Part shown: positions 6,634 to 9,091 of the stretch, in pieces
Layout of the letters: every line of letters begins with the position of its first letter
Position numbering within the stretch: position 1 is the first letter of the stretch
DNA from: Deefgea rivuli DSM 18356
GTDB lineage: Bacteria > Pseudomonadota > Gammaproteobacteria > Burkholderiales > Chitinibacteraceae
Assembly (NCBI RefSeq): GCF_000620145.1
Contig: NZ_KK211081.1
Coordinates: 62,001-126,000, forward strand
Reading direction: 5' to 3'
Length of the DNA: 64,000 nucleotides
The notes under the pieces: generated by a model
The model's database searches: none
What the model was told of the DNA's origin: nothing
What the model saw: the letters and a program-made list of their open reading frames with translations, nothing else
Translations under genes and position numbers: made by a program

Positions 6634-7512
6634 TTAAACCAGCGCAGCGATTTCCTGATCTTTAGCCAAAATCGGCGCCAGCGACGCCAAATCTTCGGCG
6701 CACAGCGGCAGGCGTAATTCGTTCGATGCAATGCGGCCTTGGTGATGCATGATGGCTTTGGTGGGGATTGGGCTTGGCGCAATGAATAGCGTTTCCGCAG
6801 CCAAGCGCAGCGCGTCGCCAATCGCAACACCTGCCAAACCACGTTGCACCCAGCTCGCCACTTGCTGTGGCCATACATTGCTGGCGACCGATACCAAACC
6901 CGCCGCTCCTAAAGCTGCGTGTTCGGCGAACAAAACGTCGTCACCCGAATACCAAGCGATTTGCGGATACGCTGCTTTCAGTTCAGCAAACCGTGCCGCA
7001 TTACCGCCAGACTCTTTCACCGCCCAAAAATTGGCGTGACCGAGCAAGCCAGCAATCGCACCTTCCGCCAAAGGCACACCCGCGCGCGATGGGATGTTGT
7101 ACAGCATGCAAGGTTTGCTAACGGCATTCAGTAAAGCCTCAAACCAGCGGCGCTGGCCATTCGCGCCGGGTTTGGCGTAAATCGGCGTCACCAGCAAATA
7201 ACTAGAGATTGGCTGCGTTTCGCAGAAAGCCAACCATTCAAGCTGGCTAGGCAAATCCAAGCCGCCCACGCCAACCATCAAAGGGATGTCCAAATTCAAA
7301 CTACAGGCGTGCTGCACAACATCTTGGCGCTCGGCGACGCTGAGATTGCTGCCTTCACCGGTTGAGCCAAGCAACACCACGCCATTGCCCGCAGATTCTT
7401 GTTCGCGCAGCAGCAAAGTAAACGTTGCAAAGTCGATTGCGCCGTCAGCCAGCATCGGCGTAATAATCGCAGTCCACAAGGTGATATTTTGAGGGGGCAG
7501 TACAGAAGTCAT
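6634..7512 (-). CDS. dapA: 4-hydroxy-tetrahydrodipicolinate synthase DapA
   Basis: Condenses pyruvate with aspartate semialdehyde, the first committed step of lysine and diaminopimelate synthesis. TIM barrel of about 292 residues. The STGEG loop is at ~50-54, the catalytic tyrosine in LYNIPSR at ~138, and the Schiff-base lysine in AVKESGG at ~166. The start at 7512 is set by GGAG 6 bases upstream; longer in-frame starts run into the leader RNA. A lysine riboswitch precedes it and its ribosome site sits in a leader hairpin, so lysine should shut translation. Riboswitch control independently supports the lysine assignment. No other lysine genes are adjacent. Confidence 0.92.
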   Translation of the reverse strand: MTSVLPPQNITLWTAIITPMLADGAIDFATFTLLLREQESAGNGVVLLGSTGEGSNLSVAERQDVVQHACSLNLDIPLMVGVGGLDLPSQLEWLAFCETQPISSYLLVTPIYAKPGANGQRRWFEALLNAVSKPCMLYNIPSRAGVPLAEGAIAGLLGHANFWAVKESGGNAARFAELKAAYPQIAWYSGDDVLFAEHAALGAAGLVSVASNVWPQQVASWVQRGLAGVAIGDALRLAAETLFIAPSPIPTKAIMHHQGRIASNELRLPLCAEDLASLAPILAKDQEIAALV

Positions 7513-7518
7513 GCAGTT

Positions 7519-7541
7519 CTCCAATTTAAAGACGATTGGAG
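7519..7541 (-). promoter_or_regulatory. Shine-Dalgarno-sequestering hairpin of dapA
   Basis: CTCCAAT (7541-7535) pairs with ATTGGAG (7525-7519), which contains the dapA ribosome binding site GGAG; the loop is 9 bases. A second hairpin lies just upstream: GGTAATGA (7600-7593) with TCATTACC (7562-7555). No U-run follows either one, so translational rather than transcriptional control is inferred. Confidence 0.7.
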
Positions 7542-7598
7542 AGAGGAAAAGTGCGGTAATGACGCGGCAGCAAAAGGCTGGCCTAGGGGAAATCATTA

Positions 7599-7878
7599 CC
7601 AAGAGCACTCCAGCGGCCGGTGTGGCTACTGACAGTCCAGAGGATTCAGCCTCTGTAACCAGCAAAATGGATTCAAGCCCCATTCCGCTTCGGCCTTGCT
7701 CCCCCTAGTAGCACCGCTGGCGTAATAAACATACAAAAATTCTCACACAAAGCGCAAAGTCGAAGACAGTACAAAACGTACGGCGAGACGAAGCAATGCA
7801 GTGTGAGGACTTTTGTTTTTAATACACTCAGAGCTTGAACTCTGCGGTGATACGACCTGGGCAAGGCGCCTCTCTTGT
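7599..7878 (-). promoter_or_regulatory. Lysine riboswitch (L-box) aptamer upstream of dapA
   Basis: Read on the minus strand. The leader starts with P1 strand CAAGAG (7877-7872) followed by AGGCGC, the conserved 5' core of the L-box. The 3' half contains GGGGGAGCAAGGCCGAAGC, then TACAGAGGCTGAATCCTCTG with GGACTGTC, which closely follows the E. coli lysC leader. The closing P1 strand CTCTTG is at 7605-7600. A segment of roughly 80-100 bases between the 5' and 3' cores is longer than in E. coli. It precedes dapA, the expected target. Confidence 0.88.
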
Positions 7879-7891
7879 CGTTCAAGCCCGT

Positions 7892-7920
7892 ATTGCAACC
7901 CAGCCGCCTAAAAATGTCAA
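7892..7920 (-). promoter_or_regulatory. Sigma-70 promoter of the riboswitch-dapA transcript
   Basis: TTGACA at 7920-7915, a 17-base spacer, then TGCAAT at 7897-7892. The predicted start near 7885 lies just before the first strand of riboswitch P1. Confidence 0.75.
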
Positions 7921-7948
7921 TCCTGAAAGAAAAATCTAAAACGGCTTA

Positions 7949-8043
7949 GTCCACGAAAAACACGAAAGGCACGAAAAAAGGCAAAATTTAAAAGCAATAT
8001 TCGCCTTGGTTTTCTTTCGTGTCTTTTCGTGCCTTTCGTGGAC
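7949..8043. repeat. CACGAA palindrome, GTCCACGAA end-type (R1)
   Basis: Begins GTCCACGAAAAACACGAAAG and ends with the inverted TTTTCGTGCCTTTCGTGGAC, with about 30 bases of unrelated centre. It lies between the divergent riboswitch promoter and the GspF-like gene. Short reading frames across it encode low-complexity HEK/FSW peptides and are not genes. Confidence 0.85.
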
Positions 8044-8104
8044 AACCGTTTTTGATTTTAGATGTGGCTCACGCTCGCCTTTGCGACGCACATCAGCAAT
8101 ACTC

Positions 8105-9091
8105 ATGCCTATGAAAAGTAAATCCTCACTCCCTTGGCAAGTTCGCGCCGAGCTGTTTTCGCAGTTGGCAACTTTAGAGCGCGCCGGTCTGCCGACCGAC
8201 CATGCTCTGGCCACTATCAACTTGCCCCAGCGCTATCAAACCCATCTAGCCGCAATGCGCAAAGCGCTCACTCGCGGCAAAACCATTGCCCAAGCTGGCG
8301 CGCAAGCGGGGATTTTTAACTCACTAGAAACCGCGCTGATTGCCGCCGCCTGCCAAGCCGGTAGCCCAGCCGCCACGTATACGCGTCTGGCCGAGCAAGC
8401 CGCGCTACACGCGCGTTTAGCCAAACAAATCCGCGCCAAATTAGCACTACCTGCCTTGATGCTGCTGCTGGGTTTACTCATCAACCCACTACCCGCGCTC
8501 ATCATGGGTACACTGAGCGTGGGCGGCTATTTATTCGGCGTATTGATGCCGCTCATATTGATTGCAGTAACGTATATGCTGGGGAAAGGCGTATTCAATA
8601 CCTTTGAGCGCGATACCTCATCCAGCATGGCAAGCACGATTTTGCAATTGCCCTTATTTGGCGCTTGGTATTTACGCAGCAAACAGCGTGATTTTGTCGA
8701 TAGTTTGGCGCTGCTACTGCATGCAGGCGTATCGATGTTTGAAGCGATCCCCATCGCCCAATCGACGATCCACAGCGCCTGTTTAGAAGCGCAGTGCAAG
8801 CCGCTATTGCGGCAATTACAGCGCGGGCAAAGCCTCACCGAAGCGCTGACCTTCGTGCCATGGCTGGCGGATGAAACGCTGATCGCGATGGTTAAAACAG
8901 GAGAAAGCAGCGGCACATTGCCCGAAATGCTACAACGCGTCGCAGCACAGCTCAGCGCCAATTTAGAACACACCGCCACCCAATTCGCCGCATGGCTACC
9001 GCGAATTATTTACGCACTGATTGCTGGCTGGATGGCGTGGGGAATTATTGGCAGCGGCGCATTTATGCCGCAAATACCGGCGGATTTATAA
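8105..9091 (+). CDS. Orphan type II secretion/type IV pilus inner-membrane protein (GspF/PilC-like)
   Basis: Polytopic platform protein with two T2SSF domains, the kind that works with a GspE/PilB ATPase in secretion or pilus assembly. A first helical domain (~25-110) is followed by membrane segments around residues 115-190. A second domain (LRSKQRDFVDSLALLLHAGV...) carries the family motif VKTGESSGTLPEML, and a last membrane segment lies near the C-terminus. Starts at 8105 or 8111 are both possible and neither has a good ribosome site; upstream bases belong to the R1 repeat. No other secretion genes are next to it. The ~328-residue length is shorter than GspF (~400), mainly at the N-terminus. 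Confidence 0.72.
   Translation: MPMKSKSSLPWQVRAELFSQLATLERAGLPTDHALATINLPQRYQTHLAAMRKALTRGKTIAQAGAQAGIFNSLETALIAAACQAGSPAATYTRLAEQAALHARLAKQIRAKLALPALMLLLGLLINPLPALIMGTLSVGGYLFGVLMPLILIAVTYMLGKGVFNTFERDTSSSMASTILQLPLFGAWYLRSKQRDFVDSLALLLHAGVSMFEAIPIAQSTIHSACLEAQCKPLLRQLQRGQSLTEALTFVPWLADETLIAMVKTGESSGTLPEMLQRVAAQLSANLEHTATQFAAWLPRIIYALIAGWMAWGIIGSGAFMPQIPADL

Follow-up and report, generated by a model that had tools for sequence, protein, structure and literature searches.

The dapA gene of Deefgea rivuli is probably (about 0.82) controlled by a lysine-repressed translational riboswitch, in which a palindromic dispersed repeat has been inserted in the 3' bulge of arm P2 with the core and the L2-L3 contact unbroken. 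The leader lies on the minus strand of the window, by which is meant the whole 64-kb stretch of DNA that was analysed. Riboswitch aptamer arms vary in length, and the origin of new arms is seldom visible. In this leader a dispersed repeat is present in an aptamer arm, related leaders without the repeat are available, and the adjoining tertiary contact is kept.

Identification of the dapA leader

The only Rfam match in the window was to the lysine riboswitch family RF00168 (7727-7595, minus strand), with 42.7 bits against a gathering cut-off of 30 bits (E 6.7e-08). The first-pass annotation had read a lysine riboswitch here, with promoter, P1, AGGCGC core, P4 hairpin, intermediate hairpin and Shine-Dalgarno hairpin in front of dapA. 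All of these elements were found on the minus strand, and the Rfam covariance model matched the leader significantly, though with a misplaced 5' end. The Rfam 5' boundary at 7727 was discarded, as the P1 pairs are mismatched there and a perfect P1 strand is present at 7877-7872. In the relatives, RF00168 scored 82-110 bits and the matches spanned 178-229 nt, compared with the approximately 280 nt required in the window leader. Repeat insertions of this kind can lead a family model to set the aptamer boundaries wrongly.

A lineage covariance model (R1) was built from eight compact related dapA leaders, with the window left out. Using the default cmsearch, on which this full-length result relies, the model aligned the whole aptamer end to end (7877-7600, model positions 1-186, 120.0 bits, E 4.6e-33). 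With the filters off, only a short match was returned and the full-length one was missed, which was attributed to the length limit of the model. The conserved core segments AGAGGNGC, GCCGAAG, CTGG, CTGTCA and GGAGTGCT were all present in that order, and P1 (CAAGAG/CTCTTG) closes the five-way junction with six pairs. The gene 3' of the riboswitch is dapA, a lysine-pathway gene, as expected of a lysine riboswitch; its product matched TIGR00674 with 244.9 bits (cut-off 206.15). Judged by its sequence, 7877-7510 on the minus strand is a lysine riboswitch (L-box) leader of dapA, and it is predicted to bind lysine. The riboswitch class is already known, and was correctly read in the first-pass annotation. 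The parts of the leader are as follows.

7892-7920, minus strand: promoter-like TTGACA (7920-7915), 17 nt, TGCAAT (7897-7892), from sequence and conservation
7600-7877, minus strand: full lysine aptamer, repeat included (lineage model R1; partial RF00168 match)
7872-7877, minus strand: P1 5' strand CAAGAG, invariant in 14 leaders
7875-7869, minus strand: AGAGAGG, overlapping the P1 5' strand, proposed anti-sequester (alternative pairing in folds)
7871-7866, minus strand: AGGCGC core, from sequence
7693-7867, minus strand: arm P2, GCCTTGC (7867-7861) with GCAAGGC (7699-7693), from the model alignment and folds
7853-7844 with 7717-7708, minus strand: P2b helix GTATCACCGC/GCGGTGCTAC, one mismatch, coordinates read from the sequence
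7830-7843, minus strand: L2 hairpin AGAG-TTCAAG-CTCT, loop 7839-7834, kissing with L3
7723-7828, minus strand: inserted palindromic dispersed repeat of about 106 nt, ends approximate (genome matches, aligned copies)
7733-7748 and 7801-7816, plus-strand coordinates: inverted ends of the repeat, ACAAAAATTCTCACAC/GTGTGAGGACTTTTGT (inverted-arm search)
7663-7687, minus strand: arm P3 with loop L3 CTTGAA (7677-7672)
7638-7655, minus strand: arm P4 CAGAGG-CTGAAT-CCTCTG (GGCTGAATCC), CAGAGG 7655-7650 and CCTCTG 7643-7638 (Rfam and lineage model)
7606-7635, minus strand: CTGTCA, arm P5 and core segment TGGAGTG (7612-7606), from Rfam, leader comparison and lineage model
7600-7605, minus strand: P1 3' strand CTCTTG (leader comparison, lineage model)
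7555-7600, minus strand: intermediate hairpin, GGTAATGA (7600-7593) with TCATTACC (7562-7555), pairs in 14 leaders
7540-7554, minus strand: linker GCACTTTTCCTCTCT, proposed lysine-free partner of GGAGUGC (7611-7605) and AGAGAGG (7875-7869), from conservation, folds and shuffles
7518-7542, minus strand: Shine-Dalgarno-hiding hairpin, TCTCCAAT (7542-7535) with ATTGGAGA (7525-7518), in which CTCCAAT (7541-7535) pairs with ATTGGAG (7525-7519), from sequence, folds and conservation
6634-7512, minus strand: dapA, 4-hydroxy-tetrahydrodipicolinate synthase, ATG 7512-7510 (open reading frame; TIGR00674)

The TTGACA-17-TGCAAT arrangement recurs with the same spacing in six other Deefgea leaders and in L022, a leader from another family of the order. 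The window promoter was not called by a promoter scan with a stricter rule, and the promoter call therefore rests on conservation. Another palindromic repeat (CACGAAAGGCACGAAAA/TTTTCGTGCCTTTCGTG) was observed directly upstream of the dapA promoter (window 7925-8060), and this stretch had 110 matches in the same genome. The divergent neighbour (window 8006-9091, plus strand) encodes a GspF/PilC-like protein, with a GspF score of 107.1 against a curated cut-off of 424; similar proteins were found, by reading, upstream of dapA in several relatives.

The inserted repeat

The central part of the leader had been noted earlier as longer than in E. coli lysC. The extra length is real, but its source is the palindromic dispersed repeat inserted in arm P2 (7828-7723). 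With the window copy as query, 16 places were found in its own genome at E<=1; the matches elsewhere in the genome reached E 1.8e-23, with 75-88% identity over most of the length. The repeat consensus gave at least 20 matches in the same genome and matched 17 of the 43 family genomes. Thirteen aligned copies, including that of the window, form a palindrome of approximately 103-106 nt with inverted ends. The repeat is thus short, of non-coding size, multi-copy and bounded by inverted ends, which are features of a MITE. Visual inspection of the aligned copies, whose ends are not sharp, revealed no clear target-site duplication. As target-site duplication was not established, the repeat is termed MITE-like, and its sequence suggests a mobile element.

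The repeat occupies a bulge that arm P2 naturally has on its 3' side; when the repeat is deleted computationally, about 6 nt of bulge remain, much as in the compact leaders. The repeat was absent from all 13 other dapA leaders. Hairpin-forming arms of 40-50 nt were observed at the same bulge in four other Deefgea leaders (L006, L009, L010 and L011), with no detectable match to the window repeat. The arm of L006 differs internally from those of L009, L010 and L011. The presence of these arms would agree with the long arm of the window being an ordinary lineage-specific extension of P2 that involves no mobile repeat, but this is already contradicted by the matches of the window arm elsewhere in the genome, inverted ends included, and is highly improbable.

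The same arms are also relevant to a function of the repeat itself (attenuation, RNase cleavage or help in folding, for example), which would place dapA under both the switch and the repeat. The window copy folds strongly (z -4.15), there is a T-rich stretch (AATTTTTGT) at the end of its stem, and transcribed bacterial repeats elsewhere serve as attenuators or RNase sites (PMC3049150). However, no terminator-like site was called by the scan, the computed ON-OFF balance of the window (-6.8 kcal/mol) was the same with and without the repeat, and none of the other dapA leaders carries it; an added function is considered quite unlikely. A broader reading takes the 3' bulge of P2 in the lysine riboswitches of Deefgea as a docking site that has more than once received structured arms unrelated to each other, one of them a mobile repeat, and supposes that the repeat arm may have become a working part of the switch (through folding order or RNA stability); this reading is speculative and seems unlikely.

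Integrity of the aptamer

The repeat would turn P2 into a three-way junction. Despite it, the core, the P2b helix and the L2-L3 kissing loop are kept in the window leader. L2 (UUCAAG) and L3 (CUUGAA) form six of six pairs, and the two loops covary across the 14 leaders (for example CGCAUG/CAUGCG in L058). The difference at fourfold sites of dapA was 0.44-0.45 between the window and its nearest DapA relatives. Of the 96 leader columns that show no variation among the 13 other leaders, the window leader departs at one.

For P2, a structured insert of 106 nt is unusual. Of the dapA leaders searched with the lineage model, that of the window scored lowest, at 120 bits against 130-189 for the others (130-139 for the four Deefgea leaders with other P2 arms). 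Both points might indicate that the insertion crippled the aptamer, and that the riboswitch is decaying with lysine control of dapA lost or being lost. The intact core strings, the single departure among the invariant columns and the full L2-L3 pairing all argue against such decay. The window copy is also approximately 15% diverged from the family consensus, a value that does not point to a very recent insertion, although copy divergence provides no date. Decay is distinctly improbable, and the sensor carrying the repeat still appears able to fold in the models. In terms of secondary structure alone, the insert would be close to neutral.

Proposed switching mechanism

With lysine bound, P1 (CAAGAG/CUCUUG) would be held and the intermediate hairpin would form, and UCUCCAAU/AUUGGAGA would cover the Shine-Dalgarno sequence, resulting in little DapA. 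When lysine is absent, AGAGAGG of the P1 5' strand would pair with CCUCUCU of the linker, and GGAGUGC of the core with GCAC-UUU of the linker; these pairings would dissolve P1 and weaken the Shine-Dalgarno hairpin, so that translation is allowed. The opening of this hairpin by an anti-sequester from the P1 5' strand is proposed here and was absent from the first-pass annotation.

In computed folds of the 14 leaders, the mean accessibility of the Shine-Dalgarno sequence was 0.01-0.02 when P1 was forced, and 0.27-0.69 (0.38 in the window) when AGAGAGG/CCUCUCU was forced (the ON fold). In each of the 14 leaders the ON fold was 3.3-9.7 kcal/mol more stable than P1 plus the Shine-Dalgarno hairpin; these energies take no account of lysine, of the kissing loop and kink-turn, or of folding during transcription. 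Because of these accessibilities and this balance, lysine should stabilise P1 and hide the Shine-Dalgarno sequence, which should be partly freed without lysine. The GGAGUGC/GCAC-UUU pairing was concurrent with the anti-sequester in the folds of the window and of most leaders. Thirteen leaders have an identical linker; the distant L022 keeps its pairing parts, GCAC and CCTCTCTCC, with different bases between them. When the linker was shuffled in four leaders, 0-3 of 60 shuffles attained the native free-state accessibility.

The pairings of P1, the intermediate helix and the Shine-Dalgarno hairpin are common to all 14 related dapA leaders, apart from a few losses of single pairs; in the intermediate hairpin, both sides have changed at three positions with the pairing kept in every leader. 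No terminator-like site was found in the leader scan, and termination at the leader end was ruled out on this basis. Translational control through a hairpin hiding the ribosome site, with no terminator, had been expected from the first reading, and it is what these folds, the conserved pairings and the scan predict.

Some of the results count against the mechanism. Even in the computed ON fold, that of the window included, the Shine-Dalgarno sequence is incompletely exposed, and in several leaders the free ensemble remains largely closed (0.05-0.15 in four, and 0.08 in L058). P1 and the anti-sequester are invariant and hence beyond covariation testing. Lysine binding, the switching energetics and the translational output are predictions of the models.

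Distribution among relatives

RF00168 was detected in 13 of the 43 family genomes, comprising all seven Deefgea and all six Chitinibacter, and was missing in the 30 other family members (nine other genera). All the leaders inspected in Deefgea and Chitinibacter were upstream of dapA. Across the order, 399 genomes were sampled, and 7 of their 158 genera had a match. Outside the family, RF00168 preceded dapA in L022 (genome G335), and the other five matches preceded transporter-like genes, as judged by reading the proteins. Nine other genomes from the family of L022 gave no RF00168 match and added no dapA leaders. The 5' half of the L022 aptamer is nearly identical to that of the dapA leaders studied here. 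Horizontal transfer of the L022 leader is possible. The presence of an L-box in a betaproteobacterium, which had been highlighted in the first reading, was upheld, but lysine riboswitches had already been reported in a few Betaproteobacteria in 2017 (PMC5584792).

The window leader (7877-7512) looks mosaic when compared with L002, L004, L006 and L009-L011. Its P2 5' half (0.90) and its P3 (0.69-0.77) are nearest to the D. salmonis-type leaders. L002/L004 are the nearest for its platform, for its DapA (0.91-0.93 versus 0.76) and, in the case of L004 only, for its P5. From these sequence comparisons, recombination may possibly lie behind the mosaic.

Comparison with known systems

The window leader shares with the RF00168 L-box the core sequences, the five arms, the L2-L3 kissing loop, which has been described as a feature of lysine riboswitches (PMC3764141), and the place before a lysine-pathway gene. 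It differs in the 106-nt dispersed repeat in P2, in the misplaced Rfam 5' end and in the lone dapA. For E. coli lysC, translational control through access to the ribosome site has been described (PMC5584792). The same type of control is proposed for the window leader, whereas the gene and the expression platform are different. We know of no repeat in the E. coli lysC riboswitch.

The new part is the nesting of a dispersed repeat in an aptamer arm whose tertiary contact is preserved. No repeat or MITE inside a riboswitch aptamer was found in a literature search that covered few subscription papers, and priority is unproven. The nearest precedent found is in pneumococcus, where a BOX element separates two T-box riboswitches that precede the trp operon (PMC3049150). 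In both cases a structured dispersed repeat is co-transcribed with a riboswitch leader that seemingly still works, but BOX lies between riboswitches and the Deefgea repeat is nested within one aptamer arm, making the window leader a natural insertion test of the parts of a lysine aptamer that tolerate extra RNA.
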